From positions 1-44,675 of the forward strand of contig JAWXAU010000161.1 in assembly GCA_034439655.1 (NCBI GenBank): a stretch of 44,675 bases of DNA. Direction: 5' to 3'. The stretch is from Bacteroidota bacterium (GTDB taxonomy: Bacteria > Bacteroidota > Bacteroidia > UKL13-3). The position numbers were made by a program, and so were the translations under genes. The notes below the pieces were generated by a model that was given only the letters and a program-made list of their open reading frames with translations, had not been told where the DNA came from and did not search any database. Shown in pieces: positions 15,001 to 40,006 of this stretch; position 1 is the first letter of the stretch, and every line of letters starts with the position of its first letter.

Positions 15001-18000
15001 AAAGTAGATACCATAAGATGCTGCACCACTTAGGGTGATATTGTTGCCAAGTACTTTAATTGCATTGCCTGCATTCGCGATATACATACTGTAATAAGCA
15101 GTAGCTGAACTTGTGTTAAATGTATTGTTCAATATATTAATACTGTCGGAATAATTTAAATAAACTCCAGCGTAATATTGATTGTTAAAAGTATTTCCCG
15201 ATATCACCCATTTTTGATCTCGTGTACCGTTGGTTGCCATATACATGGCATATCCAACAGCATTAAAGGTATTATTACTAAAAGTATTAAAATTATCTAC
15301 AACACTCTGCTCATACACATGATAGTTGGAAGTATTTTGGGTACTATTAAATACACAACCATTAAATGTATTGCTATTTGATCCTCCTGTAAATTCTACA
15401 TTTCTAGCATTTCCTGAGGTGCTGGTTAAGAAACCTATATTGTTGAAGGTAACATAATCTGCACCCGCCATTTGAACTGAGTAAGTGGCAGTGCTTAATC
15501 CTTGGATTATACATAAAGCAGGGTTACCCGATGCTGATGTAAAAGTGATTGTATTGCTGCTAGAGGTATTACCTGGAATGGAAGAAAGCGAAAAGCTTTC
15601 ATTATAAGTACCGTTTGACACAGTAAAAGTGACGGTACTGCTCATACCGCCGCAGGTTAAAGCACTAACTGCACTTGTAAATGATGTAAAGTTTGTTGAC
15701 GATGCCGCCGCTCCTGGGTTAATTGTATAGCTACCGGTTAAAGTAGTACAAATTGTAGCTTGAGCTGTATCGTTTGACAAATTACCATCACCACTTAAAG
15801 CTGTGTACACTTTTAGGGGACTACTACCGCCAGCTAGAGTAATGGTTGTTGAAAATGTAACCGTTGCTGTATCGCAAACGGCTAAGGCCGTTCCAAAATT
15901 AAAAGTCTCTGAAACTGCTGACCCTCCATTGTACTTATAATAAACCGTTAAACTTGAAACCGATGCAGTACCGAAATTTTTAACGATTGCCTTTACAGTT
16001 TGAGAAGAACCTGAAGTTAATGTTCCTGATGGGCTGGTAATAAAAAAGACTCCAACATCATTAGACGAGGTGGCACTGGCAATTTCATCTGCCCCAATAT
16101 TAGGTGTGCTGGCACGGCTTTGTCCATCAAAGTCAGTGGTAATAAGTCCTAAACCACCAACACCTCTTAAACAATAAACTCCCATGTGCAAATCTGTACT
16201 AGAGGTGTATAAAGGATTAAGGTTTTGGGAGTTTGCATCCTTACTTGTTGCTGTTTTCCAGGCTCCCAAAGTTGTATAAGCTGAGCCACTCAAGTAGCAA
16301 AGATTGGTTCCAGTTGTATAATAGTTATTATAATTAACTGTGGTGTAATAAGTGAAATTGTCGAACCTAATTGCTGGTGCCCCGTTATAGGCAGCAAAAA
16401 TATTATTTTGAAAAGTACTAGTACCTGTAGAACCACCAGCAAACCAACCTGCCGCCGAACCATTTGTTGTTTGCGAAGTTCCTATATTTACAGAATTATG
16501 TACATAATCTGTTCCATAGGTACCCTGTTCAAATATCCCATAGGTGCTATTTGCAGCGGAACCAATTTGTATAAAATTATTTGCCACCAAAGGCTTTCGG
16601 GCACTATTCACGCTTGAATTTACAGCTAAATAAGAATTATACATCCCATATCCACCTACGGCTCCAGTTATCTTGTTACCAGTAATTAATATTTTATTCG
16701 TGTCTGCCAGCACCATAACCCAATAGGTGTACATTCCAATATACGAAGTAAAAGCAGAGTTCGTCGAAATCCTGTTTTTGGTCAATTTAACACCATCCAA
16801 ATACTGATTATATATTCCATAAGCATACTGATTGGTAAAATTACAATTATTAAACATCGTTCCTTGAGAAGTCGCATTGATTGTACTGTTGCTATTTGAA
16901 GCAATATAAGACCCATAGGCTCCATTATTAATGCTACAGGTATCGAACCTCATATTGTTTGAAATATTGGCAGTATTATATCCATTTATAACCGCATGGT
17001 TTGGGGTATTACTGGAAGTAGTAACGCCATTAAATATCACATTGTAAAATGAATCATATCCAGCACTGCTTCCAAAGGCAAGAGCAGTTCCATAAGTAGT
17101 ATTACTTGCCGTAATAGTCATATTAAAAAATCTAATGTATTTAGCTCCCGAAAGATTAACTGTATAATTCGCCGTAGAAACAGTAGACGGAAAAGTTAAA
17201 ATACGGGTACTAGCATTTCCACTACCTCCATTAAAGGTAATTGTATTGGTGGCGGATGCTCCTGTGATAGCTGGTATTGTAACTTGTTCAGTATAAGTAC
17301 CTGCAGAAACATCAAAAACAACTGGGCCTGATATCCCGCAATTAATTAGTGCACTATCTGCTTGGCCAAATCTTAAAAAATTACTTGATCCACTTCCAGA
17401 GGGGTTAATCGTATAAGTACCGCTAAGACCTGTGCAATAAGTAAAAGTTCTGCAAATAGTATCGTTTGCGGCTGTTTGAGTTCCATTTCCGTTTACATTA
17501 TTTAACCACATTTTTAAGGTATAGGTTCCTACACTTGAAATGTTTAATTGCGTTGAAAAAGTAGCAGTATAGATTCCGCCAGAGGCAACTGAAAGGCTAC
17601 TTAAAGATTGTGTAACAGCAGAATTATTATCTAATTTATAACCGATATCAACTGATGTCATATTCGCGTTCGTTAAATTAACCATCGAAAATGCAATTGT
17701 ATTATTTCCCGACACAAAACTTGCGGGCGATGTAAAAGTATTAGCAGAAGCATCGCCGGTAGAAGCAGGCACCAATAAATTGTAATCTTCGCATTCCGAT
17801 GAATATGCCAAAACGCCACAAGGTCCAGGAACATTGTTAGAATAATCAGCTATTACACGTAATCTGTACACACCATTGCCTTGACCCGAAGGAACTGTGA
17901 AGCTGTCCGTAGTAACACTACTAGCATTAACGAGGGAATAAGTATTTATCAATTCACTTCCGGAGGTATTAAATGTTCCATCAAGATTATAATCCACAAA

Positions 18001-18363
18001 TACCTTTATGGTTGCTTGATAGTTGGAAGCATTTGTAATTGATAACCCCACTTTCACACCAGCAGCTGCTTTCACAGTTTGTGTTGAATAGTAATTGTAA
18101 ATACCAGCAGCACCCACAGTATTTGCAGAGGTGGTATTGTTAATTTGGTTGGTGACAGCAGCAGTACCAAACTTGACATTAGTCATTCCCATACCATACC
18201 CCGCGTTATTTGAAGCAGTGGGTGAACAATAACTGGGGGCTGTGTAACACTGCGAAAATGCACCTTGGTAAGTTGAGAGCAGCAATAAGATTGCAACTAA
18301 GCTCCGAATGCTTGATGATTTTTGCCAAAAGATGTTTTGGGCTTGTGTGTAGATGTGTTTCAT
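1..18363 (-). CDS. Giant secreted multi-module beta-helix surface protein (C-terminus outside window)
   Basis: A single open frame runs from an ATG at 18363 to the left edge, at least 6,121 codons with no stop; I checked the frame at seven landmarks across the gene. Residues 1-38 form a signal peptide ending GAFSQ. A GEVED domain follows (about 60-200, ending SECEDYNLLV). Eight modules of mostly 550-600 residues come next, each with a CARDB-like Ig spacer, a GTYTINPS-type opener, an Asn-rich right-handed beta-helix with RNNIF/HNTVN turns, and a closing (D)IDGxxRS...PDIGADE or GAYE motif; closers lie near residues 759, 1303, 1892, 2471, 3041, 3597, 4156 and 5075. The tail has two Ig-like domains, a jelly-roll-like domain, a BNR_assoc_N-like domain (about 5470-5620), a second GEVED (about 5635-5770, NGETEDYKV) and the start of another repeat region. 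Composition is rich in Ser, Thr, Asn and Gly. By family this is probably a T9SS-exported adhesin or surface-layer protein; the sorting domain, if any, lies beyond the window. Ligand unknown. Confidence 0.93.
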   Translation of the reverse strand, partial: MKHIYTQAQNIFWQKSSSIRSLVAILLLLSTYQGAFSQCYTAPSYCSPTASNNAGYGMGMTNVKFGTAAVTNQINNTTSANTVGAAGIYNYYSTQTVKAAAGVKVGLSITNASNYQATIKVFVDYNLDGTFNTSGSELINTYSLVNASSVTTDSFTVPSGQGNGVYRLRVIADYSNNVPGPCGVLAYSSECEDYNLLVPASTGDASANTFTSPASFVSGNNTIAFSMVNLTNANMTSVDIGYKLDNNSAVTQSLSSLSVASGGIYTATFSTQLNISSVGTYTLKMWLNNVNGNGTQTAANDTICRTFTYCTGLSGTYTINPSGSGSSNFLRFGQADSALINCGISGPVVFDVSAGTYTEQVTIPAITGASATNTITFNGGSGNASTRILTFPSTVSTANYTVNLSGAKYIRFFNMTITASNTTYGTALAFGSSAGYDSFYNVIFNGVTTSSNTPNHAVINGYNTANISNNMRFDTCSINNGAYGSYIASNSNSTINATSQGTMFNNCNFTNQYAYGIYNQYLDGVKLTKNRISTNSAFTSYIGMYTYWVMVLADTNKILITGNKITGAVGGYGMYNSYLAVNSSVNSARKPLVANNFIQIGSAANSTYGIFEQGTYGTDYVHNSVNIGTSQTTNGSAAGWFAGGSTGTSTFQNNIFAAYNGAPAIRFDNFTYYTTVNYNNYYTTGTNLCYLSGSAYTTLGAWKTATSKDANSQNLNPLYTSSTDLHMGVYCLRGVGGLGLITTDFDGQSRASTPNIGADEIASATSSNDVGVFFITSPSGTLTSGSSQTVKAIVKNFGTASVSSLTVYYKYNGGSAVSETFNFGTALAVCDTATVTFSTTITLAGGSSPLKVYTALSGDGNLSNDTAQATICTTLTGSYTINPGAAASSTNFTSFTSAVSALTCGGMSSTVTFTVSNGTYNESFSLSSIPGNTSSSNTITFTSASGNPALCIIQGLSTATYSVQMAGADYVTFNNIGFLTSTSGNARNVEFTGGSNSNTFNGCVFNSTQNTSNYHVYEQSVVDNFNTFSNNTFNAVGYAMYMATNGTRDQKWVISGNTFNNQYYAGVYLNYSDSINILNNTFNTSSATAYYSMYIANAGNAIKVLGNNITLSGAASYGIYFTSVTGTSTNRITIANNAIRGGTNGYYGIYVQSCSYIDLYHNTVNISGTSLTTSGCLYFASNNNFNIKNNLFSNAAAGYSVVVPAGNTFSAANVMDYNNYTTTGTNIALTSGTARTTYANFASAMSTAAGTTQNANSSNKTPLFVSAPSNLNISDGCLTGVSGTGITTDINSVTRSSSTPNMGAYEFSSLSDNLMVVAIRTPIPTVGTGLTNVVVTIKNVGNNSVTSGTIKYQYDNNTAISLSLPSTMNPCDTLQLTFNSTSGPGSTDQRLTVASGLHYLKAFTQSPNGNTDNDKTNDTTGFTTCTGGISGTSFTINPSVAASASNFTSFTSAVTAITACGGISGPVKFTVAAGTYTEQINLTGISGLSSTNTLAFDGGAGNAATRILQASGTASLPYTIRINNLSYISIKNLTIRGTGGNAWPVNILASSTVTADTIKNCIIDFGSTSVASFNSTNYMGIVLNGNATSYSTAGTFGNIIIDSNTIQGGFANIMVYANNSSSTGGNQFTGNACNNAYQYGVYLQGINAGTFDRNSINMNTNLASSSGLYLSSANSLASTNTWSIQRNSIINAGQYGIFLASTAANATSRGKIYNNLIGGGFRNTNPSGLYFSSSAYNWDVMHNTVNIDNAATSTSAACIYMGNCCTTGATLLDVRNNIFAVTNSASSAVPFYMPNGYIYAVIGTSSFDYNLLYVAGANAGTTYGYNAGTLLTASTVLGNSSYNTNSIIGNPYLYSNTDLHIGITSFNVPKITAVGADYSGTSRGSSTDVGAYETPALNNDLGITAMTAPAAPISAGNNNVTVTIKNYGANTVNTADVSYSVNGGSPVTVALTSMGLASGATMSYSFTGGNQFNFSSGTNYVFKTYTGSPNGVTDAFSQNDTFISPTTAVAICGNFTINQGAAASSSNFVSFNSAVSTLVATGVSCATTFTVMGTTPYTEQVDLSGIPGLSASNTVTFDGGTGNAANRILQAAGTASLPYTLRLKDQSYIIVKNLTIRGTSTNAWPVQIMGSSSYDTIKNCIVDFGSTAISSFNSTNYQGIVLNGSATSYSATGGFNNVIIDSNTIQGGYANIIAYDANNSTTGGNQFTGNSCNNAYQYGIYLQGINGGIVDRNIINMNTNLTSSTGLYISSANALASTNSWSIQRNKITNAGQYGIFLASTGAHASSRGKLYNNLIGGGFRSTGLNGIYFSNSAYNWDVFHNTINLDFAATSTSSACLYLGNCCTTGSTTLDVRNNLLAVTATGSTAMPFYMPNGYLYAVIGSSSFDYNLLYVKGATSTTNYGYNAGTYLTSSTVIGDAGNNSNSVIGNPYFTSNTDLHVGNAANNAPKITTVGTDYSGTSRGSSTDMGAYETPAQNNDIGISVITAPVFPVTAGNNNITVTLKNYGANTVTSANVSYSVNGGSAVSVALSSISLAANGGTGTYTFTGGNQFNFAANTSYIIKAFTASPNGVSDAFAANDTFTSSPIGVALCGSYTINQGAAASATNFTSFLNAVNSLNSGGISCPVNFTVMGATAYNEQVELLSIQGASTTNTITFDGGAGNAANRTIYFAASAQASSYTIRINNTPGVIIRNLTIQATGTTYGWPVHILGNAANNSKVKSCIINYGGSNGTNSTSTNFCGIVLNNSTTGVTGGQSTATGFELDSNTISGGNTAMYLYCNVNYNATKWYARNNTISNTYQYGLYIYANSSFTISRNTITMRTGYASSSGLSINYCYGGSNCEISYNTVTNAGQYGIYYIYAFQNASTTPGKMFNNMIGGGFSSTSAQGIYLAYGQHWDVDYNTVNLDVATSSAIYSAFYVDPSYSYAPTNMRNNIFAYTAGSGSGLPVYFGTITGLSTFNYNDYFSAASTNLIYHNGTTYTTSTYTTVGANSKNINPSFTSSTNLRHTTSTLKAGVTGTGISDDIDGRSRSSTTPYIGAYEVPVNNDLGASILVSPSLPTLAGTFDVTVRFKNFGANNVTSGTVGYIFNGGSAVTTSYSGTLVPLDTSSKTFTGGNQITISSGSTNTLKVFAVAASEGNASNDTLTFTICAGLSGTYTIDTTQANSSTNFKSFNRVVNILSGCGGVAGPITFNVSGNTYSEQVSIGAINGTSATNTVTFVGTDTTNTILTFAGSSASTTHTVLFNGCQYVTFRNMRIRATGATYAVPVYFNNANNNKVGSCVVDITNAPTSSSAAGAVFSGSSSSFSTTSNCNNNYLDSNRISSGYYGVYHAGNNGSVVNYIRNNYFQNSYYYGVYQNSSSMSSNKILNNTFQLATGNANSSCIYLINGTPATGFYHEIKGNTFIRTGQYHIYILTSQGGASAGVSGEITNNFFGGSWNNTSTAGCINMYGQNWKIYNNSFYMTGTANSSACFSVWGGTNTIDVRNNIMANAQTGGSNFAADINNTAAVSIFNNNILYGTGVDILRIGGNTYQSGNLASAAFPNGAGTGSSYQLPAFASSTDLHITNSCNNGVNLGVTTDIDGQTRSSMPDIGADEYTGVANDVGVSAIVTPSFPLSAGTQNVVALIKNFGSDSLSSLTVYYKLNSNSVVSQSFSFSPALQQCDTSSITFTTQATIVIGSNNLKVYTAKSGDAVTNNDTSQFTLCPALNGTYTINPSGSGTTNYTSFTAASAALQCGGLGGLVTFNVSTGVYTEQLIIPTIVGASATNQIVFQSATSVPSDVVITYSGTSTNNYTVGLIASKYIYFKNMTITATNSTYGTALLLSSGASYDSFYNVTLNGVSTTTNSTNLAVITIPSSSISNFVYFDTCRINNGAYGTYIQSSSSNSFGASSRGTGINNCDFTNQYAYGMYHQYLDGIKITNNRITTNSSLATYYGMYNYWIMVLADASKTYITGNKISGGQGGYGMYCYYMGVNSSVTAARRYLVANNFIEIGTGSNATYGLYDQYGNGVDYIYNTVSNGTSSNANTSAAGYFAATVYGTNTIQNNIFAGLNGAAAIRMDNNTYYPTCDYNDLFTTGTNLGYYSTTGYATIGTWRTASSRDANSKNIRPDFLSTSDLHVTNKACMNNFGTNLSTLMAVDIDAQSRSTTPDFGADEFTPLSYDIALQTILIPVSTSISASTNYNIKVRIKNNGSTTISSVVLNYMVTGSSAVSETFTPSTALAACDTATYTFTTGLTFPSGSSTLKVYSTTMNSGNSDQDNSNDTLQNIYCTPFTGTITVNPAVAVSSTNFATISSAASRLNSCGISGNIIVDISDGQYTENIVFSGQIPGASPTSTVTFRPASGDTGVWINSFTGHLVNLNGVKYVKFDGRAGGTGTSRIMNLTQTSSAFAAVNFINDAVRDTIRYCNMYSNTSAGVGTVTIGTTNGTIGNDSNTVEYCLFDKSTGNTANHIYALGTAAKENDYITINNNIFLNAFLPGSTTVSALSMQGNNRYWNVLDNKFTQTSINLPVGAVTSNLTSILVNSATEVGHLIQGNRIGGNIAGISGSVYQIGDASVVSGQLNQVLPIRIGNTSSTTTLKLYSNVLKDMKVHTNYSVGLASGFLGILVSVGNVEIGGDGPATGNIVGDSSLAANIEVIAYNSAGGQRTNGIRILGGITSCKIKNNMVAGLSFKNVNSSSTTVNEVIAIQQLSNGANTTCYIDSNFIGSNEISNSLQNENGSFGATLVGGIQANPNGSSHIHYIRSNSINSLYNGYTGSSAVNNTFGIVAGSAASTAIFKIDSNNVSYLASNDSNVSTGISASVIGIGLSSGTTQSNPEILRNTVSNLSSFKGNTSMYGIFYNNSGTGSQVSRNKVYALSNSSNTGTFTNISGIYNSLGNGVTVANNQISLIQNGSSTNSMIGISDNTSTNTQNYHYNTVYIAGSQSGIVAGSTAFGRAGSGSTLNIRNNILYNSHTSAGTNYIYTIPTAWSSTTSLYNFFASADTSNSFYVSGTTTTHGFSSWTINVSDGSGNTSANTTTNVIASNFFKDAVNGNLNINSDYCEVNNKGTAVGTTNDIDGETRSGSTPDIGADEFNMNFDLGVSSIKTPTSGLNRTSTELVKVWVKNYSSTITVPAGTNFKAGFIVDGVTVSIQNLTTVSSINVGDSQLFTFTATANVGAYTTHTMKAWTQICDGTASNDSTSSIIINQLGDNLGVTAMLSPGTSCIYGPNQTVSFRFKNLGYDTVKMAINNVIVRTKVTIPGGSIVSLPDVTLASGTMLPGDSLNATPTNTFNMSTTGNYIFKSYTIYALDVTHTDDTLIQTIAVVAPLALPYTQDFNASTSTPSGWTLATGFSVGSGTGAMGTNGIRINNNSATLNGLAILPKVGALSATSAIQFDYKITDVSGGGATTLTSEDSLLLQISTDCGVTYNSVSSINASNHTATTSFTTILTSISSYSGQNVILRLVGKTTGSTTSNYYLDIDNINVYNQAAMSYVTSNVTQNNLSNVLRGTNDAEVLRLKVVTTGNITPLVVNNIRFVTAGTTNVADLVNAKIFFTSNNNIYNTATQVGSTVSSPNGYVVVNFTTPVTLGTGNNYFWLSYTVSPTAPIGNKIDAYIDYLTVNSNVKMPIPKTAVGDRMVYYCSPVHVTGCGLGFIDGVQLGTINNTGSGCSSTSDSSWSNYFTSNLSSRTTNLRGNNNYTLTFTNSAKPQKVVMWIDYNRNGIYDISEYTLISSNVASSVAITYDITMPASVTAGTAGMRIRTVDTNTVITAADACASFANGETEDYKVSLQAPCDWVGGFSTLWYNPSNWASNSVPTAADNVRIPAIATFMPWVTGASYGKDITIDTGATVTIVAGGTLYVVRNYYRYGMLDHVGGSLTLYTPQSIPADTHVVLSINGVGTYTLQGNSKINNQLFIGTGTILNDGGNVITIAKDIMNNGTHTGTGKMVFAGTASQSIAGTSNIYKNIEFVSAFTVRAVSNMTVTGNLGLNPGSLTYQGVNLNLGTFTSTDSIAIYGTGNVMNTTAVGMLSVLGDTGAAKVVGLRVQTKGTIFIHRLKGVRLGGNLTCDGALMLDSGVLDLNGFNATIGTTTTASSSLITTGGALNNSSSTAGTLNLYGAIAATPISNLKIGSQFKVY
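5895..7245 (-). repeat. Beta-helix module 7 of the giant gene, close homologue of module 1
   Basis: This encodes residues of about 3710-4156, closing with PDFGADEF. Shared blocks with module 1 include MTITA.NSTYGTAL, DSFYNV, FDTC.INNGAYG and NFTNQYAYG-type segments. Module 8, which follows, is distinct and longer (about 920 residues). Confidence 0.8.
10948..12687 (-). repeat. Module 4 of the giant gene, tandem near-copy of module 3
   Basis: Same layout as module 3, closing with STDMGAYETP. The similarity is visible in the DNA as well as the protein, for example around 11460-11720 and 13200-13440. Module 5 (9240-10947) is a more distant relative of this pair. Confidence 0.85.
12688..14455 (-). 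repeat. Module 3 of the giant gene, tandem near-copy of module 4
   Basis: This encodes a CARDB-like spacer and a beta-helix closing with STDVGAYETP. It shares long runs with the adjacent module 4 (10948-12687), including LTIRGT, DSNTIQGG, GNQFTGN.CNNAYQYG, NNLIGGGFR, GNCCTTG and FYMPNGY. The two are the most similar neighbouring pair and fit a recent tandem intragenic duplication. Confidence 0.85.
16087..17430 (-). repeat. Beta-helix module 1 of the giant gene, close homologue of module 7
   Basis: This stretch encodes residues of about 310-760. Its protein matches module 7 (5895-7245) almost turn for turn: both carry MTITA.N.TYGTAL, DSFYNV, NNGAYG.YI, FTNQYAYG, QYLDG, MVLAD and QNNIFA in the same order and at similar spacing. 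The intervening modules are less similar, so 1 and 7 look like copies of each other separated by five other modules. Confidence 0.8.
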
Positions 18364-32154: not shown

Positions 32155-33150
32155 GTGAATAAAATATCATTACGCAACAAACCTACAATTTTTGCTATTA
32201 TATTTTTTATAATAACTTGTGTTTTTTTATTATAAATTATATATAAATGGGGAGAGTGTATATAGTGGTCGGATGGAGAAGAGGTTTATGGTTTTGGAAC
32301 AATCACTAATTGTTTCAAACAGAGAATTAGATGAGAAAAATATGCAAGTAATTGGTCAAGTATATAAATTAATAGAAACTGAATCGTCCGAAGTTATACC
32401 TTATGTTTTAACGGTAAAAGAAATAGATAGTTCACTTAAAATATTTACCAAATATATTCGTAAACTCAATTCCACTTTAGATGGTAATATATATAAGAGT
32501 TTCCAAAAAAATCCTGAATTTATTAGTAACGACAATAAAGAAAATATAACTAATTTAATAACTGAATTACATAGTAATACATTTAAAGATGCGTTAAACA
32601 AGATGGGCCAGTTTCTGAATTTAAAATGCAGCAAAATTGGAATTGACACACTATGCTTATTGAATTTAACCAGACTTAAAATCACTTATGATATTAAAAG
32701 TGATTGGACAAGTGAATTTTTCCATAATTTCCCACTTGAAGGCATTAGTATAATGCTTGCTAAAATTGAAAATGATTTTAAGTGTGCTTCTTCTGAAGTT
32801 ATTTCAGAAATAGCAACACGACAAATCAATAGTCACGGCTGTGGATTTGATCCAAAGATAGCGACAGTCTTACCTAAAGCTATTATGATTCCAGTAGGTG
32901 ACAAATATGAGGCGGATATTTTCTTGTCTAAAAATAAAAATTTCTATTATAAGAATATTGATGGTATAACCGTCGATGGTAAACCAATAAAGATAGAGAG
33001 TGGGATTGGGAAATTTGAACAAATAGTAACCGATGGCAATCACAAAATTCAAGGTAGCATAATGAAAAAAACCCTGACGGTGCAACTGAACTACACCTGT
33101 TCGATATAGAATACACAGGCTTCAAACTCCCACCAAACACAAAGAAATAA
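32155..33150 (+). pseudogene. Shortened GldM-like protein gene with two compensating frameshifts
   Basis: The intact middle frame (to 33109) encodes a protein resembling the first two periplasmic domains of GldM/PorM, the inner-membrane motor partner of GldL in T9SS and gliding. The best match is LPKAIMIPVGDKYEADIFLS, then VDGKPIKIESGIGKF, as in the second domain. Upstream, GTG 32155 starts MNKISLRNKPTIFAIIFF plus more hydrophobic residues, a type II membrane anchor like that of GldM, but in another frame; removing one T from the T7 run (32222-32228) joins them. At the other end, adding one A to the A7 run (33065-33071) restores MKKNPDGATELHLFDIEYTG and a stop at 33150. The restored chain is about 331 residues and lacks GldM domains 3 and 4 (full GldM is about 510). 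If it is not a pseudogene, the usable start is ATG 32273. It is alone, without gldKLN. Confidence 0.68.
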
Positions 33151-34123: not shown

Positions 34124-34440
34124 ATGTTGGTGTTTTATATAAGTTTCTTTGTAAAAAGAGTGCTTATAATAATACTACAAATTAAAGGGTGAAAGGGTTT
34201 TGAAAAAAAGATATTTTGTGATTGCTCCGTTCATTCTGAACATCGACGACGTCATGCTGTTCGCCGCGGCGAACAGCATGACGTCCCATGCCTAATGGCG
34301 TAAATGACGTTATACCGAAACTCACTATATAATAGTCCAAAAGAAAGGGACTAAATGTATTGTAGTTCGGCATTACCATTCTAAAAACCAAATCCGCCAC
34401 AGGCGAAGAACTATTTTAGTTTAAGAATTGGTATCACTTA
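34124..34440. other. 317-bp spacer holding the palindrome and a minor hairpin
   Basis: Apart from the 38-bp palindrome, the spacer has a short CGCC-ACA-GGCG hairpin around 34395-34405; on the minus strand it is followed by GATTTGGTTTTTAG and could act as a weak terminator for the six-gene operon. A 72-codon minus-strand frame (34182-34400) reads straight through the palindrome and shows no protein features, so it is not called. Confidence 0.45.
34248..34285. repeat. Perfect 38-bp palindrome
   Basis: The left half is GACGTCATGCTGTTCGCCG and the right half is its exact reverse complement, with no spacer (centre between 34266 and 34267). Transcribed, it would fold into a near loopless 17-18 bp hairpin; as DNA it could form a cruciform. 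It contains the 12-mer CGCCGCGGCGAA also found at 32017. It lies between the polyprenyl synthase start and the end of the VTC operon. It may be a REP-type element, a terminator or a protein-binding site; no T tract follows. Confidence 0.85.
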
Positions 34441-34632
34441 TCACCTCCTAATCGTATCCTGCTTTATAATACTATCCCTACCCACAGACTTTAACATTTC
34501 GTAGCGGTTACTATCAGCTTTTAATACTTCTGTATCAGTAAGGTCCTGAGGTTTCATAAACACAGACAAAACGCCCAATAAGATAAAAACTACAATGATT
34601 AAAGCAAAATATTGCCATTTAAGTTTTTCCAT
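34441..34632 (-). CDS. 63-residue single-pass membrane protein, last gene of VTC operon
   Basis: MEKLKWQYFALIIVVFILLG starts the chain: a short basic N-terminus, one membrane helix (about 8-27), then a polar tail of 36 residues rich in Asp, Lys and Arg, probably in the periplasm. I recognise no family. The ATG lies two bases after the TolC-like gene's stop, so it is almost certainly translated with it. It may be an accessory subunit of the envelope complex encoded upstream. A small protein of this size is easily missed by annotation. Confidence 0.72.
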   Translation of the reverse strand: MEKLKWQYFALIIVVFILLGVLSVFMKPQDLTDTEVLKADSNRYEMLKSVGRDSIIKQDTIRR

Positions 34633-34634
34633 TA

Positions 34635-35915
34635 CTATTCAAATTTGGTATGATAACTTTCCAATAATTTTGTATATAATATCATATCGTACTGGTAAGT
34701 CAATAAACTAGCTTCTGCTTGTGCCAGTCTTTCTTCCGCCGATTCAAGTTCATAATAAGTGGTATTTCCCAAGTCGAATGCCTTTCGTTCTAGATTTGTT
34801 TCTGACCTTAAATATTCAATTTGTGTATTGATTATTATATAAGCTTCCTGTGTGAGCCTTAGCTGTTCTTTTAGTTGGACAATTTTTGACCTGAGCTCAA
34901 AATCGAGCTGCGATATTTTGTTATCATATCTTTTCTGCTCTATGAGCGATTGTGAAATTAAAGACTTGGGTTGCATTTTATTGAACAAGGGAATATTAAC
35001 ATAAAAAGCAACATACTTTGAAAGGTTTGTATTAAACTGTGTGTTGAGTTCCATTTGCACCAAACTTGAGCTGCGGGTTACCCAGCCTGCCATAATACCC
35101 GCCGTGGGATACCGGGTTGATTTATAAATATTGATTCTTTGATTTTCGAGCGACGACAAACTTTGGTAAGTATGATATATAGGAAAATTACTTACTGAAA
35201 AACTATAATCTTGTACAGTAGTTATATTCAATTTATCAGGCGATTTTATATTGATAGAATCAGCGGTATAGCAAATTCCCTGAATTTGTTTATATAATAT
35301 ATTTTTCTGGTTTTTTAGTTTTGCTATCGTCAGTTTATTTAAGGTAACATAGGCATCAATATGGGGAATTTCCTTGGCGGGTAATACGCCAGCAGCCACC
35401 ATACTCTGCACTTTCTTTTGCTTGAGCAACCATTGGTCGCTTACTTTTTGGGCTTGCAATATTTGTGCATCAGTTTGCCAATATTTATAATATAATACGG
35501 TTATCTGGTTTTTTAATTCAAACAAATTTTGTCGATATTGTTGGTGCGATACTTGTTTGCCAATATCATACATTTGCCCTGTATAATAGTTTTTACCTCC
35601 ATCGAAAAGCATCCAATCGGATTGTATGTTGAAAGAATACACTTGGCTGCTAAAATTGCTCAGCACATTGGTAGCGGGGTCAATAAACAAACCCCAGTTA
35701 TAGGTATTCCGTATGCTTGCCGACAACTGTGGCAAGTAATTATAGTTATTATATTTCGATGCTTGTTCATATTTCAAACTATCAATAACTGCATCTTTAA
35801 TACTCATATTGTTATTGTAGGAAAGCAATACCAAATCGTTCAAGCTACTTGCTTGCTGGGCTTTTGCTTGTGAAATAAATAGCAGAATATATATAGCTAC
35901 AATACTACTCCTCAT
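34635..35915 (-). CDS. TolC-family outer-membrane channel protein
   Basis: A 426-residue protein with signal peptide (MRSSIVAIYILLFISQAKAQ). The mature part is long alpha-helical hairpins with Gln, Glu and Leu heptads, interrupted by two beta-strand zones (NYLPQLSASIRNTYNWG near 60 and YPTAGIMAGWVTRSSS near 270), the arrangement of TolC-like trimers. The C-terminal helix has YYELESAEERLAQAEASLLTYQYD, typical of the family. TolC proteins form the outer-membrane duct for type I secretion or efflux, and normally pair with an HlyD-like adaptor and an inner-membrane pump. Here the adaptor is three genes upstream, but no pump is present. ATG 35915 overlaps the DUF4956 stop by 11 bases. Confidence 0.9.
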   Translation of the reverse strand: MRSSIVAIYILLFISQAKAQQASSLNDLVLLSYNNNMSIKDAVIDSLKYEQASKYNNYNYLPQLSASIRNTYNWGLFIDPATNVLSNFSSQVYSFNIQSDWMLFDGGKNYYTGQMYDIGKQVSHQQYRQNLFELKNQITVLYYKYWQTDAQILQAQKVSDQWLLKQKKVQSMVAAGVLPAKEIPHIDAYVTLNKLTIAKLKNQKNILYKQIQGICYTADSINIKSPDKLNITTVQDYSFSVSNFPIYHTYQSLSSLENQRINIYKSTRYPTAGIMAGWVTRSSSLVQMELNTQFNTNLSKYVAFYVNIPLFNKMQPKSLISQSLIEQKRYDNKISQLDFELRSKIVQLKEQLRLTQEAYIIINTQIEYLRSETNLERKAFDLGNTTYYELESAEERLAQAEASLLTYQYDMILYTKLLESYHTKFE

Positions 35916-36579
35916 CAAAGAATAAATTTACATGTTGTACTTTATCCATCAATTTTAGTTCTTTCACCAATACTTGGCTATTCTCTTCTTTTTTCAATTT
36001 TATATAATAAGACAATTCTAGGTATTGGTTATTCTCCTCGCCTAAGGCTTTTACATTTACCAAAGAATATTTGCGGCAAAATTTACTGATTACGGTGCTG
36101 GCATCAAAGCCATCGTCCGTTTTGGCACTCACCACCATTTGCAATAAGAAATCACGCTTACGCGGTGCCGACATGTTTACCTTAACCACCACATAGAACA
36201 CCAAACCCACTATAATAGTTCCCATTATGGCTACTTCATATATTCCTACGCCACTGGCAAGACCTATTGCTAAAGCAAAAAATACAAACATCATATCCTG
36301 CGTATCTTTCAATGCCGTTCGGAAACGTATGATAGACATTGCCCCCACCAATCCAAAAGCCGTCGCCAGGTTATTCCCGATAACCATTATAACCACAGAG
36401 GTAATCATGGTAAGCATGATCAATGAATTTACAAATGTGGTGGAATAACTAAGACCTTTATAAGTTTGTCGGTATACTATCGAAATCATTATTCCGCATG
36501 CAAGTGCTACAATTAAATGCAGCAGTACCTCGCGGAAAGTAAGTTGGTATAAATAAATGTCTTGTAATTGCTCATTCAT
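35905..36579 (-). CDS. DUF4956 membrane protein
   Basis: A 224-residue integral membrane protein. It has about four membrane helices (near residues 17-36, 48-68, 94-108 and 111-133) and a soluble C-terminal domain of about 90 residues. The family signature is the GLVGAMSIIRFRTALKDTQD block at about 76-95, followed by the hydrophobic AIGLASG. DUF4956 proteins are commonly found beside VTC-domain polyphosphate polymerases, as here, but their role is not established. I infer a membrane partner for the polymerase, comparable to the membrane domain in yeast VTC. I use ATG 36579, overlapping the VTC stop by 8 bases; a TTG at 36591 would add four residues. It is tightly coupled to the TolC-like gene. 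Confidence 0.9.
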   Translation of the reverse strand: MNEQLQDIYLYQLTFREVLLHLIVALACGIMISIVYRQTYKGLSYSTTFVNSLIMLTMITSVVIMVIGNNLATAFGLVGAMSIIRFRTALKDTQDMMFVFFALAIGLASGVGIYEVAIMGTIIVGLVFYVVVKVNMSAPRKRDFLLQMVVSAKTDDGFDASTVISKFCRKYSLVNVKALGEENNQYLELSYYIKLKKEENSQVLVKELKLMDKVQHVNLFFDEE

Positions 36580-37387
36580 GGTTTTCGGCAAATGTTAAAG
36601 GTTTATAAATTGCCATACGGCTGTAACTAACAGGTGAAAAGCGGTGTGAGGAATTCTGGATATGGTTGTCAAGTCCATCAGCATACTTTGAGATAGCCTT
36701 TAGGTTTAGTTTAAATTCTTCAATAATACTCAAAGCCCAGCGAGGTATTTCATCGTGGTATTTTATCTCCAATACAAAATATTCGGGCGATAAGTATTTG
36801 GCCCCCTCTTCTCCATATATTTTATCTAGTTGTGGATATATAGTGGTGCGTACGTTTTTATCGAACGTGATGCGTACCCCTTTATCAAATTTACCCATAT
36901 AAGCTTCGCGTTCGTAGGTCACTAAATTGAGCGGTTGCAAAGAGTTTTTATAGAAATGATATAAGAATTTTTGCCCATCGTACAAATGCGTTTTATTATA
37001 TAGGAATTTTTCCAAATTCCCCGCTTGTAATATTTCATTTAATGATGAATATGGGACTTTTGCACGATGTTTCCCGATGCGGCTGCCTATTTTTTTCTTG
37101 ATTTCTAAAAATGCAACACTATCTGGTTTTTCATTATCATACACCCTTATCCTAAATTTATTCCTCAGTTCCACACCTTCCTTTTTTTCATCATAATATT
37201 TCATAAAAGGAGTATCATAATATATACTTCTCACGGTATATTCACTAATACCAAATTCGTTCAGCCCCGCATAGGTATCCGGCTCTACAAAAGGTCTTAA
37301 TCTAATACGTAATTCCTCCAACCTATTATTGACCAAATAATATTTGCGTTCGTATCTGTATTTTTCTATTTTGGTAGCTTCTAACAT
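36572..37387 (-). CDS. VTC-domain polyphosphate polymerase-like protein
   Basis: A 271-residue soluble protein covering the whole VTC catalytic tunnel domain; in yeast Vtc4 this domain makes polyphosphate from ATP. The basic and acidic residues lining the tunnel are recognisable: ERKYYL at 13-18, Arg53 in VRSIYYDTP, KFRIRVY at 77-83, FLEIKKKIG at 93-101, VTYEREAY at 156-163, RITFDKNVRT at 172-181, VLEIKY at 205-210 and ISKYADGLD at 232-240. No signal peptide or membrane helix is present, so it faces the cytoplasm, presumably docked on DUF4956. It follows the HlyD-like gene by 17 bases and overlaps DUF4956. Some VTC relatives of bacteria may act on other polymers, so the product is inferred. 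Confidence 0.92.
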   Translation of the reverse strand: MLEATKIEKYRYERKYYLVNNRLEELRIRLRPFVEPDTYAGLNEFGISEYTVRSIYYDTPFMKYYDEKKEGVELRNKFRIRVYDNEKPDSVAFLEIKKKIGSRIGKHRAKVPYSSLNEILQAGNLEKFLYNKTHLYDGQKFLYHFYKNSLQPLNLVTYEREAYMGKFDKGVRITFDKNVRTTIYPQLDKIYGEEGAKYLSPEYFVLEIKYHDEIPRWALSIIEEFKLNLKAISKYADGLDNHIQNSSHRFSPVSYSRMAIYKPLTFAENHE

Positions 37388-37404
37388 TTTATAATTATCT
37401 AAAA

Positions 37405-38478
37405 TTATTTATAAAATATATCCCCCAATACCCTGTTCATATAATCCCATAAACTTATCTCCTCGCACAAAATAGTTGCTTTTGCAAACATTCCTGATTG
37501 TGGATGGGCAGATATTCTTATAATTCTGAAAGTCGTATATATAGCTTGCTTGCCTCCTACCAACTGTATTACATTATCAATTCTACTTACTTTGGCCTGC
37601 AAGGTCTCGTCGCTATTAAATAGTTTAAGTAATACTGTAGCTCCCGATTTAAGATAGGCAACTTCACGCAATGGGATAGGAGCAATAGCAATATATTCGG
37701 ATGTGTCAAGTAAATCCATTAATATATCTTCGGTTGTAATCGTTCCCTTTTTTTGTTGAACCAATCCACTAAAAGCAGCTTTGATACTGAAATTGTCCAT
37801 TCGTTTTTTTAATTCCCTGATCTGGTTCTCTATTGAATATATTTTTTGACGGTTCAGTTCCAATTCCTCTTCTTTATTGCCCGTGATTAGTTTTTGCAGT
37901 TCTGCTTCTGCAATTTGCACCCCAATACGTGCAAGCTCTAGTGCATCTTTTGATACTTCGAGTTGTTGGGTTGGTAATAAAGAATCACGATTGAGTTTGA
38001 TGTTACGTTCTACTATTTTTTTCTGTGTAATATACTTTTCTTTGGTCAACTGCAAATTGGTTTTCGACTCTGTTATGATCTCAGGTTTTTGACCTGTGGA
38101 TATTACATTCAACGAAGCCTTTTCTATGTCTAAAAGTCCCTGCAGTTTTACCATTTCTATTTGAAGTGTTTTAGAATACATGTGTCCTAAAACTTCATCC
38201 TTTTTGATATAATTTTTTTGCATCACCGATGGCTCCATATAAAAGTCAAAAGCATCGCCCGCCTGAAACTCGTGCCCTGAATAGTTAGTGATTACATCCA
38301 ATTCATTGTTTTTGTTTGCACTGGTTATTCGTCCATCAACCGAGCGGGTCAATACCCATTCATTTACAGGAAAAACTTTGCCTGTAGCATATATTTTATA
38401 AGTGATTTTTATGGGGAGGATAAACAAGCCGCAAACTGCTGCGATGAGTATGATATAGATAATATATTTTTTGCTCAT
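37405..38478 (-). CDS. HlyD-family membrane fusion (periplasmic adaptor) protein
   Basis: A 357-residue adaptor with one N-terminal membrane helix (about 5-24), a split barrel-sandwich (lipoyl-like) hybrid domain, an alpha-helical coiled-coil hairpin (about 108-245, rich in Glu, Lys and Leu), and a beta-barrel domain (about 255-345) containing FSGLVQQKKGTI and LREVAYLKSGATVLLKL. HlyD proteins bridge an inner-membrane transporter with TolC. The insert after the first sandwich strand (GHEFQAGDAFDFYMEPSV) is longer than usual. It starts two bases after the propeller lipoprotein stop. With no pump gene in the operon, its inner-membrane partner is probably DUF4956 or the VTC protein. ATG start is clear. 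Confidence 0.9.
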   Translation of the reverse strand: MSKKYIIYIILIAAVCGLFILPIKITYKIYATGKVFPVNEWVLTRSVDGRITSANKNNELDVITNYSGHEFQAGDAFDFYMEPSVMQKNYIKKDEVLGHMYSKTLQIEMVKLQGLLDIEKASLNVISTGQKPEIITESKTNLQLTKEKYITQKKIVERNIKLNRDSLLPTQQLEVSKDALELARIGVQIAEAELQKLITGNKEEELELNRQKIYSIENQIRELKKRMDNFSIKAAFSGLVQQKKGTITTEDILMDLLDTSEYIAIAPIPLREVAYLKSGATVLLKLFNSDETLQAKVSRIDNVIQLVGGKQAIYTTFRIIRISAHPQSGMFAKATILCEEISLWDYMNRVLGDIFYK

Positions 38479-38480
38479 TA

Positions 38481-39446
38481 TTATTTTATTGCCGATATGT
38501 TTAAACCATATAATGACGGCGGTACACTTTTATATTGTTCGTTAGAAACTAAAATTGAATCATTGTTCACAAAGGCAATACCTTCTATTTGGCCAATGGC
38601 AGACCTTAGCCCAAGGTCTACAAGTATTTTTTTATTATCCAATAAGCTTGGCGATTTCAAATCGCGTAATACCCATAAAAATGCTTTATCGCTAGTGGGG
38701 TTGAAACCTGTAAGTACTAAAGATTTTTTATCGGGCGAAATATCAGCACCGGTTATTAGCCCTTTGCTGTCGAATGAACCCAATAAAGTTGCTTTATAGG
38801 TGCCTTCCTGAGCAGGTATCCGATACAAACTGGTATGAAGGTCGCCATGCCGTTTGGTAAATATATATAAATAATTATCTAAATATACTATTGCTTCCGC
38901 ATCATAATTGTTGTTTACTGACTTACGAAAATCTGTTTGATCAGGATAGGTATAATGTATGAGGTATGAGGGTACGCTGTTGTTCTTTTTCAAGACCGAT
39001 GAGTCAATAACTGAAGCAATATATACACTCAAATCACTTCGGTCTCCATTATTGTTTCCCATGTCGGCAATATAATAATTCTTACCGTCAGTAGCTATAT
39101 CTTCCCAATCTATATTGGATGCCCCGTTGATCGCTATATTTTCATTGTCGTCGCCTTTGGCAGTATCAATGCAGTATAATGCCGGTTCGCCACCTCCATC
39201 AGAAAAGCTCCATACACGTCCTTGCACCCAAGCCAATCCAGAATTTTCCTTGAACAAAGATTTCAGTACGACAATCAATTTTAAATTTGCCGCGGTATTT
39301 GCATATTCACACGAACTGTCATCTACCTTTGCCTTCTGTTTGTAGTTGATGGCATTGGGGTCGGTACAGCCTTTTTTGGAGCTGCACGACATGGTGCTTA
39401 ATGCGACTAATAGAGAAAGAATATATACTACCTTACGGCTTTTCAT
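38481..39446 (-). CDS. Beta-propeller-like lipoprotein, first gene of VTC operon
   Basis: A 321-residue lipoprotein: signal peptide with lipobox STMSC (Cys21). Residues 26-48 contain the GCTDPNAINYKQKAKVDDSS-type motif, a short Asp/Cys-rich unit common on Bacteroidota surface proteins and possibly calcium-binding. The rest looks like a propeller, with NSGLAWVQGRVWSFSDGGGE, NIDWEDIATDGKNYYIADMG, DAEAIVYLDNYLYIFTKR and IEGIAFVNNDSILVSNE as repeated blade-like units, similar to esterase-like or phytase-like propellers. A phytase-like fold would be notable next to a polyphosphate polymerase, but the catalytic residues cannot be judged by eye. It is divergent from the small barrel gene, with only 29 bases between, and begins the six-gene run. 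Confidence 0.85.
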   Translation of the reverse strand: MKSRKVVYILSLLVALSTMSCSSKKGCTDPNAINYKQKAKVDDSSCEYANTAANLKLIVVLKSLFKENSGLAWVQGRVWSFSDGGGEPALYCIDTAKGDDNENIAINGASNIDWEDIATDGKNYYIADMGNNNGDRSDLSVYIASVIDSSVLKKNNSVPSYLIHYTYPDQTDFRKSVNNNYDAEAIVYLDNYLYIFTKRHGDLHTSLYRIPAQEGTYKATLLGSFDSKGLITGADISPDKKSLVLTGFNPTSDKAFLWVLRDLKSPSLLDNKKILVDLGLRSAIGQIEGIAFVNNDSILVSNEQYKSVPPSLYGLNISAIK

Positions 39447-39475: not shown

Positions 39476-40006
39476 ATGTACAATAAAAAATTAAAAATCT
39501 TGAGACCAATATATTTAGCTTTAGTTTTCAGCATGTTATGGACGACCAAAATCGCCGCTTTTTCAATTAAAGACAGTTTAAATGTTTTCATTCACCATCC
39601 ATTGCAATTAAATTATGTGGGAATTAACACTGGTGTATCAAAAAAAATATATAAAAATTTAGAGCTAGGGTTAGGGGTTTATACTTTTTTTTACTATCGA
39701 GACGATTTTCGCAAATCATCAAACACAACCGGCCTAATTGTATGGGCCAGATATTATTATAACAATTTTTTTGTGGGTGCTTCATTTTACAATGGCCGTT
39801 CCCCTTATTTAAGGCAGCTCAATCAAGAAAAGATATACATTATGCAGTACGACCTGATTGCAAATGCGGGCTACCGCCAAAAGTTTTCGAAGAAATATTA
39901 TTTAGATTTCTGGGCTGGTTATAATGTGGTACAAAAACCACACTCTTTCAACCCCACTGCCTTTTCACTTTGGGCAGGTGTGGGCAAACATATTGGGCGT
40001 CGTTAG
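39476..40006 (+). CDS. Small outer-membrane beta-barrel-like protein
   Basis: A 176-residue exported protein with signal peptide (about residues 1-28, ending KIAAFS). The remainder is alternating, aromatic-rich strands such as GVYTFFYYRDDF, IVWARYYYNNFFVGASFY and FWAGYNVVQ, consistent with an eight-stranded barrel. It ends FSLWAGVGKHIGRR. No family is recognised. It is divergent from the VTC operon and 24 bases upstream of rnhB, so it may be co-transcribed with rnhB by position alone. Its role is unknown. Confidence 0.75.
   Translation: MYNKKLKILRPIYLALVFSMLWTTKIAAFSIKDSLNVFIHHPLQLNYVGINTGVSKKIYKNLELGLGVYTFFYYRDDFRKSSNTTGLIVWARYYYNNFFVGASFYNGRSPYLRQLNQEKIYIMQYDLIANAGYRQKFSKKYYLDFWAGYNVVQKPHSFNPTAFSLWAGVGKHIGRR

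Follow-up and report, generated by a model that had tools for sequence, protein, structure and literature searches.

A conserved Bacteroidota cassette joining a VTC-domain polymerase and DUF4956 to HlyD- and TolC-type proteins: a candidate route for pump-less polymer export

The six-gene operon and its products

The window analysed here, the whole stretch of 44,675 nucleotides of a Bacteroidota contig, contains six tightly packed minus-strand genes between positions 34441 and 39446, which run from a β-propeller lipoprotein through an HlyD-type adaptor, a VTC-domain protein, a DUF4956 protein and a TolC-type channel to a 63-residue membrane protein (Table 1). The layout given in a preliminary description of this DNA was reproduced exactly by the ORF calls, with coordinates that hold for all six reading frames and successive gaps or overlaps of 2, 17, -8, -11 and 2 bases, figures that assume ATG starts at 36579 for DUF4956 and at 35915 for the TolC-type gene. 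No ABC, RND or MFS gene lies inside or adjoining the operon in the ORF list of the window, and the ORFs and a Pfam search revealed neither CotH nor pel genes beside it.

Table 1. Genes of the operon, with positions in the window and the basis of their assignment
Feature	Position	Strand	Basis
β-propeller lipoprotein, 321 aa	38481..39446	-	ORF; AF2 fold; Foldseek
HlyD-type periplasmic adaptor, 357 aa	37405..38478	-	HlyD_3 PF13437 7.8e-7
VTC-domain (triphosphate-tunnel) protein, predicted polyphosphate polymerase, 271 aa	36572..37387	-	PF09359 1.5e-39
DUF4956 inner-membrane protein, 224 aa from ATG	35905..36579	-	PF16316 5.2e-16
TolC-type outer-membrane channel	34635..35915	-	OEP/TolC PF02321 2.5e-16
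63-aa single-helix membrane protein, final operon gene	34441..34632	-	ORF; hydropathy

The adaptor possesses one N-terminal transmembrane helix and carries the hairpin-tip sequence R158-x3-L162-x6-P, which corresponds to the RLS-type TolC-docking motif (PMC3391258) with proline at the third position. The relaxed form of this motif (R-x3-[LMFIV]-x6-[STAP]) is found in 39 of 40 type A adaptors and the strict RLS/RLT form in 28 of 40. Its putative docking partner, the TolC-type protein, has a signal peptide and OEP repeats, with PF02321 matched in two stretches. In the propeller lipoprotein, a lipobox near residue 21 is followed by a GCTDP..DDSSC motif and then by the propeller itself, which was modelled by AF2 as an all-beta fold (pLDDT 89.9, pTM 0.86). 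Pfam returned only sub-threshold matches for this protein (phytase-like, 0.006), and Foldseek retrieved β-propellers at low TM-score, including the Bacteroides surface lipoproteins BtuG1, BT1954 and XusB; conserved counterparts occur in L032-L036, L087, L088, L091 and L093. The 63-residue protein consists of one hydrophobic helix (hydropathy peak 2.9) and has counterparts only within the genus (66 aa in L033).

DUF4956 combines five hydrophobic helices with a C-terminal ACT-like domain. Its AF2 model, which is of moderate confidence (pLDDT 77.9), places the helices at residues 15-134, followed by an alpha/beta domain of the ACT/ferredoxin-like type, and resembles MgtC. The MgtC C-terminal domain was among the Foldseek matches, which covered the C-terminal domain alone and thus do not inform on the membrane part, and the MgtC domain PF02308 scored 16.4 bits, below its cut-off of 31.4. 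We know of no role of MgtC as a polymer channel, which, like the moderate quality of the monomer model, weighs against an export function. An R-x-R motif is present in essentially all members, with R85-F86-R87 invariant in A6. No useful relative emerged when profiles of DUF4956, HlyD and the propeller were searched against PDB sequences. DUF4956 may be considered a candidate inner-membrane polymer channel.

Conservation of the polymerase and of the cassette

The VTC protein matches PF09359 over its full length (positions 2-231 of 235; 136 bits, cut-off 23). It contains only the VTC domain, lacks an SPX domain as well as any transmembrane or hydrophobic helix, and is a soluble protein; its top match in the PDB is yeast Vtc4 (6.4e-10). 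Eleven residues are invariant in 39 type A sequences, namely K15, R79, R81, E95, K97, K106, R160, R172, E207, K209 and K234, which correspond, in this order, to K200, R264, R266, E279, K281, K294, R361, R373, E426, K428 and K458 of Vtc4. The equivalent of Vtc4 S457 is kept in at least 90% of the type A sequences. Among them, R264, R266 and E426 are the positions mutated to inactivate VTC in yeast, where synthesis and translocation are coupled (PMC9911596). A loss of the tunnel residues would have refuted the preliminary reading, but the mapped positions are invariant; with the catalytic residues intact, the protein is not a decayed VTC enzyme. Polyphosphate would be its likely product. PPK1 is present in 36 of the 37 genomes searched, so that the VTC protein neither stands in for a missing PPK1 nor represents the housekeeping polyphosphate enzyme.

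The core triad HlyD-VTC-DUF4956 was found in fixed order, with mostly overlapping or touching genes, at 40 loci in 37 Bacteroidota genomes from at least 14 families. Including the propeller and TolC-type genes, the order seen in the window is repeated in L032, L033 and L034, with a contig-truncated copy in L035. Given this recurrence and the 40 loci with the core triad, the gene order lies far beyond chance. A second layout, VTC-DUF4956-HlyD, which involves a distant HlyD protein, accounts for 10 further loci, and a third, CotH-DUF4956-HlyD-TolC-VTC, for a single one (L160). The cassette is thus conserved well beyond this genome and is not the isolated oddity of one metagenome-assembled genome, and the proposed union of HlyD with VTC-DUF4956, recovered in three layouts, is strongly supported. 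In the VTC tree, the layouts form separate clades (A, B, C and D), and the HlyD-linked clades group together with moderate support (93/87).

The proposed absence of a pump also held for linked genes: no pump gene recurs among 81 same-strand operon neighbours, which instead include CotH proteins, proteins with type IX secretion (T9SS) tails and SdiA-regulated propellers, and a linked ABC, RND or MFS gene that normally completes the cassette can be ruled out. Inspection by eye recognised only isolated MFS or RND-like neighbours (L036, L034).

Association with CotH kinases

CotH kinases and propeller lipoproteins surround these cassettes and, together with the co-occurrence of CotH and VTC, are the strongest functional lead, one that the preliminary description did not draw on. 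Across the phylum, CotH is encoded in 55 of 57 genomes with VTC, whereas only 80 of 338 genomes without VTC contain it; counted by genus, the figures are 38/39 and 55/132, respectively. Where a CotH gene neighbours an HlyD-type cassette, its product has a type IX secretion tail or a lipoprotein signal. In the HlyD-less class D (VTC-DUF4956), by contrast, CotH appears to be anchored in the inner membrane. A rule that HlyD occurs in exactly those loci whose CotH crosses the outer membrane separates classes A, C and E from D, but class B breaks it: its operons encode a T9SS-secreted CotH, VTC-DUF4956 and a DUF2490 protein and lack HlyD. HlyD is therefore not the sole answer to the outer membrane, a further point against the export model set out below. 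In the clade of the window, CotH is not adjacent to the cassette, although it is adjacent in other loci, and we count this against an export function. The genome from which the window derives has six CotH matches, all unlinked, and both of those examined have signal peptides and T9SS-like tails.

A candidate export route, its alternatives and its relatives

We favour the view that polymerization itself drives a pump-less export of polyphosphate through DUF4956, the HlyD-type adaptor and the TolC-type channel, in the service of a surface chemistry that probably involves CotH, and assign this reading a probability of roughly 0.5. The soluble VTC protein would extend a polyphosphate chain in the cytosol, using the terminal phosphate of ATP, while sitting over a DUF4956 oligomer, through which the chain would pass the inner membrane. 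In the periplasm, the adaptor would assemble on DUF4956 and dock with its hairpin tip to the TolC-type channel, which may then let the polymer exit across the outer membrane. Without an ABC, RND or MFS motor, transport would be powered by chain growth together with the membrane potential. Once exported, the polymer could be bound or handled by the propeller lipoprotein and serve surface phosphate chemistry, in which secreted kinases of the CotH family, its presumed consumers, would most likely use it as a source of phosphate or as a substrate. It is tempting to go further and to see here a new double-membrane exporter that has a polyphosphate polymerase instead of a pump and whose polymer surface CotH kinases use as an ATP-free phosphate source, a proposal that we make tentatively and with the odds somewhat against it.

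A TolC-type gene accompanies the cassette in the operons of the window clade and of L070, L089 and L160, and orthologues occupy the same operon position in L032, L033, L034 and L070; a fixed partnership with TolC is only partly supported, however, since fewer than half of the loci have the gene next to the cassette. TolC-type channels are often common to several systems, one genome (G245) keeps HlyD-DUF4956-TolC without a VTC match, which counts against the export model, and the class D loci make do with VTC-DUF4956 and an apparently inner-membrane CotH. These points would suit a system in which VTC-DUF4956 moves polyphosphate only into the periplasm, with HlyD/TolC acting as an envelope scaffold or serving some other export energised by an unlinked pump. 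The tie of HlyD to VTC-DUF4956 in several layouts and the lack of a recurrent pump gene nearby argue against this explanation, which we consider unlikely.

The strong co-occurrence with CotH is also compatible with VTC placing phosphate chains on a carrier (a protein, glycan or lipid) rather than making free polyphosphate, with HlyD, TolC and CotH handling the product so modified at the cell surface. In L130 and L138, neighbouring genes for carbohydrate-binding Cthe_2159 proteins point in this direction, as do the Gram-positive homologues in Pel loci, where deletion of the genes for DUF4956 and CotH alters Pel level and aggregation (PMC7112168; PMC12345266). Against this stand the conserved equivalents of the mapped ATP/polyphosphate-binding residues of Vtc4 and the lack of a recurrent carrier-specific enzyme among the neighbours, and we consider a carrier quite improbable. 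A sensing or phosphate-homeostasis module, in which the MgtC-like DUF4956 with its ACT-like domain regulates VTC while HlyD/TolC expel a small metabolite or metal-polyphosphate complex, could draw on the nearby SdiA-regulated propeller lipoproteins and on a DUF4956-DUF2490 pair among the iron-responsive genes of B. thetaiotaomicron (PMC10434189), but it leaves CotH unexplained, genes for metal or metabolite transporters do not recur among the neighbours, and its chances are slim.

Polymerization-driven export would have parallels in several known systems. Like the eukaryotic VTC complex (Vtc4 polymerase; Vtc1/3/4 membrane channel), the bacterial set pairs a tunnel polymerase with all mapped catalytic residues with a small membrane protein, and synthesis-coupled translocation is proposed for it; unlike that complex, it lacks SPX and fused transmembrane domains, uses DUF4956 as membrane partner and has a periplasmic adaptor and an outer-membrane channel attached. 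An HlyD-type adaptor with an RLS-type tip and a TolC-type channel are shared with tripartite efflux and type I secretion systems (AcrAB-TolC, MacAB-TolC, HlyBD-TolC), in which a linked ABC, RND or MFS transporter stands where VTC-DUF4956 is found here. Synthase-dependent exopolysaccharide secretion (Pel, Alg, Bcs) likewise couples polymer synthesis to export through dedicated periplasmic and outer-membrane parts, but here the polymerase is a phosphate-transferring tunnel enzyme rather than a glycosyltransferase, and the adaptor is of the HlyD type. The class B operons (CotH-VTC-DUF4956-DUF2490) share the VTC-DUF4956 pair and a T9SS-secreted CotH, whereas a DUF2490 protein takes the place of HlyD/TolC and their VTC proteins form a separate clade. 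In Gram-positive Pel clusters, CotH, a polyphosphate polymerase and DUF4956 (and DUF4832) form a group (PMC7112168), exemplified by SIR_1592-1594 in S. intermedius (PMC12345266). There, too, VTC adjoins DUF4956 and CotH occurs in the same loci or genomes; here, HlyD (and TolC) is added, pel genes are absent and CotH is unlinked in the window clade. The association of VTC, DUF4956 and CotH was thus already known from these Gram-positive clusters, whereas literature searches that paired VTC with HlyD or TolC gave no relevant result, and we found no account of the coupling to HlyD/TolC.

Extracellular polyphosphate has been reported for bacteria (work cited in PMC12345266). The present findings suggest that bacteria with the pump-less set push phosphate chains through both membranes, perhaps feeding surface kinases. 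We know of neither a described export route for extracellular bacterial polyphosphate nor a settled supply of phosphate donor outside the cell for secreted kinases such as CotH, and the cassette would offer one testable answer to both questions. If this is true, a polymerase-membrane module would join ABC, RND and MFS transporters as a partner of the HlyD/TolC conduit, and DUF4956 and bacterial VTC proteins would gain a concrete role to test.

The operon and its encoded proteins

An ORF check of the window recovered the six minus-strand ORFs of the preliminary description at their positions, with the intergenic spacing that it had claimed (2, 17, -8, -11 and 2 bases). Pfam matches assign the products to VTC (1.5e-39), DUF4956 (5.2e-16), OEP/TolC (2.5e-16) and, for the adaptor, HlyD_3 (7.8e-7); against the NCBIfam curated pump families, every score of this HlyD protein lies far under the cut-off. 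The product of the first gene, a lipoprotein, is modeled by AlphaFold2 as an all-beta propeller (pLDDT 89.9, pTM 0.86), and Foldseek returned beta-propellers at low TM-scores, including the Bacteroides surface lipoproteins BtuG1, BT1954 and XusB. Within the 3.5-Mb genome assembly, which includes the window as one contig, the operon lies between a polyprenyl synthase gene on one side and, identified by eye, an RNase HII gene and a rhomboid-like pair on the other, flanking genes that look unrelated to the cassette.

Among PDB entries, the VTC profile matches yeast Vtc4 best (6.4e-10). With the chain numbering shifted by 3, the Vtc4 residues K200, R264, R266, E279, K281 and K294 correspond to residues 15, 79, 81, 95, 97 and 106 of the window protein, and R361, R373, E426, K428 and K458 to residues 160, 172, 207, 209 and 234. 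All 11 positions are invariant across 39 VTC sequences of class A, the HlyD-VTC-DUF4956 layout to which the window cassette belongs, and alteration of R264, R266 and E426 inactivates yeast VTC (PMC9911596). The window protein has the mapped residues in common with eukaryotic VTC but contains neither an SPX domain, as judged by Pfam, nor a transmembrane helix.

The DUF4956 model comprises hydrophobic helices (residues 15-134) followed by an ACT/ferredoxin-like domain, and its structural matches include MgtC C-terminal domains. Its third helix ends in two arginines, R85 and R87, and this R-x-R is kept in essentially all of the 67 DUF4956 proteins examined. The yeast polyphosphate (polyP) channel is lined by basic residues (PMC9911596), a parallel that is suggestive only. 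Adaptors bind TolC through an R-x3-L-x6-S/T tip motif (PMC3391258), which class A HlyD proteins carry in strict form in 28 and in relaxed form in 39 of 40 cases; the window protein has R-x3-L, with P at the third place.

Cassette layouts and the search for a linked pump

A VTC domain search in 97 relatives detected the five-gene order of the window in two other genera and in another species of its own genus. For a second survey, covering order, class and phylum samples, an HlyD profile built from seven cassettes served as the discriminating query, and the DNA around its matches was checked with profiles for every cassette part. HlyD-VTC-DUF4956 occurs in fixed order at 40 loci, spread over 37 genomes and at least 14 families, its genes mostly touching or overlapping. 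The linked extras differ between loci: propeller and TolC in the window clade, TolC and then the propeller in L070, a propeller 3' of DUF4956 in L036, L087 and L088, and one upstream or divergent in L091 and L093. High-scoring VTC genes without class A HlyD revealed a distinct HlyD downstream, defining the VTC-DUF4956-HlyD layout (class C) at 10 loci (L152-L159, L163, L164), where the tip motif is strict in 5 of 10. A single locus, L160 (genome G490), reads CotH-DUF4956-HlyD-TolC-VTC, with HlyD, OEP and CotH confirmed by Pfam. VTC is present in 57 of the 395 genomes of the phylum sample, 26 of them with the class A and 10 with the class C layout.

The layouts are set apart in a tree of 83 VTC proteins inferred with IQ-TREE. 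Class A is weakly supported as one group, class C receives 100/99, and classes A and C group with L160 at 93/87, the tree tool flagging as long the branch of L160 and those that separate class D from class B. Class D (100/99) combines DUF4956 and VTC, has no HlyD and in most cases includes CotH. In class B (100/99), the order is CotH, lipoprotein, MORN-like, VTC, DUF4956 and DUF2490, and this operon, with a T9SS CotH and a small lipoprotein, is conserved in L037, L039, L043, L047, L060 and others. DUF2490 proteins form an outer-membrane beta-barrel family; class B may therefore own a separate outer-membrane part.

The preliminary description had proposed a conduit without a pump. A Pfam scan of the operon neighbors of HlyD-linked cassettes (81 same-strand genes, successive gaps of at most 300 bases) yielded no recurring transporter family among the 25 listed. 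Recurrent were T9SS sorting tails (13), CotH (9), HlyD_3 (9, the adaptors of class C), the Lamin Tail Domain (6), SdiA-regulated propellers (3) and Cthe_2159 (2); lone MFS and RND-like neighbors were seen by eye in L036 and L034.

Features of the window and of loci in other genomes
Feature	Location	Strand	Observation
Six-gene operon	window 34441-39446	minus	propeller lipoprotein, HlyD, VTC, DUF4956, TolC-type channel, 63-aa membrane protein
Giant ORF	window 1-18363	minus	single ORF of at least 6121 aa, signal-like N-terminal segment, runs past contig start; search for tandem repeats detected none; product probably a very large secreted or adhesin-like protein
GldM-type protein	window 32219-33109	plus	N-terminal and second domains (PF12081, PF21601), away from any gld operon
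Perfect palindrome	window about 34245-34285		GACGTCATGCTGTTCGCCGCGGCGAACAGCATGACGTC, between operon and polyprenyl synthase gene; candidate strong terminator or mobile/REP-like element
Divergent 176-aa protein	window 39476-40006	plus	signal peptide, beta-barrel-like sequence, no Pfam match; kept beside cassette in L032-L035; may be part of the system
HlyD-DUF4956-TolC operon	L089 4932-8200		genome G245, without VTC match
Cthe_2159-type carbohydrate-binding protein	L130 9246-10931		adjoins class A triad; hints at a polysaccharide link
Cthe_2159-type carbohydrate-binding protein	L138 5576-7375		as for L130

CotH and the proposed export of polyphosphate

PPK1 was found in 36 of the 37 genomes searched, including that of the window; VTC is therefore not their general polyP enzyme. 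CotH, a secreted kinase family present in 135 of the 395 genomes, occurs in 55 of the 57 VTC genomes, compared with 80 of the 338 that lack VTC (Fisher p about 3e-27), and, by genus, in 38 of 39 versus 55 of 132 (p about 3e-11), p values that are inflated by relatedness of the genomes, while the pattern spans many families. The window genome has six CotH matches, and the two examined possess signal peptides and T9SS-like tails. Close to HlyD-linked cassettes, CotH proteins carry T9SS tails (e.g. L127, L129, L147, L149, L154) or, in L130 and L160, are lipoproteins. Those of class D have neither a T9SS tail nor a lipoprotein signal and, judging from hydropathy, look anchored in the inner membrane by their N-terminus.

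The association of VTC, DUF4956 and CotH is already on record. Export from Gram-positive bacteria needs no passage across an outer membrane. Their Pel loci group CotH, a polymerase and DUF4956, with no mention of HlyD (PMC7112168), whereas the Bacteroidota classes A and C and L160 add HlyD. When the DUF4956 and CotH genes of S. intermedius were deleted, both the level of Pel and aggregation changed (PMC12345266). For HlyD or TolC together with VTC, a search of open-access journal articles found no description.

On the simplest interpretation, VTC-DUF4956 would make and translocate polyP, which HlyD and the TolC channel would take onward through the outer membrane wherever a class requires polyP outside, for phosphate chemistry at the cell surface that involves CotH. 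We put the probability of polyP export through such a conduit at about one half; the full version, with CotH as the consumer, is less likely than not. The main weak points of the mechanism are that few TolC genes are linked to cassettes, that class B secretes CotH without HlyD, and that G245 has HlyD-DUF4956-TolC without VTC, having either lost the polymerase or a trio with a VTC-independent role. If the proposed mechanism holds true, these cassettes would represent a tripartite conduit whose pump is replaced by a polymerase.
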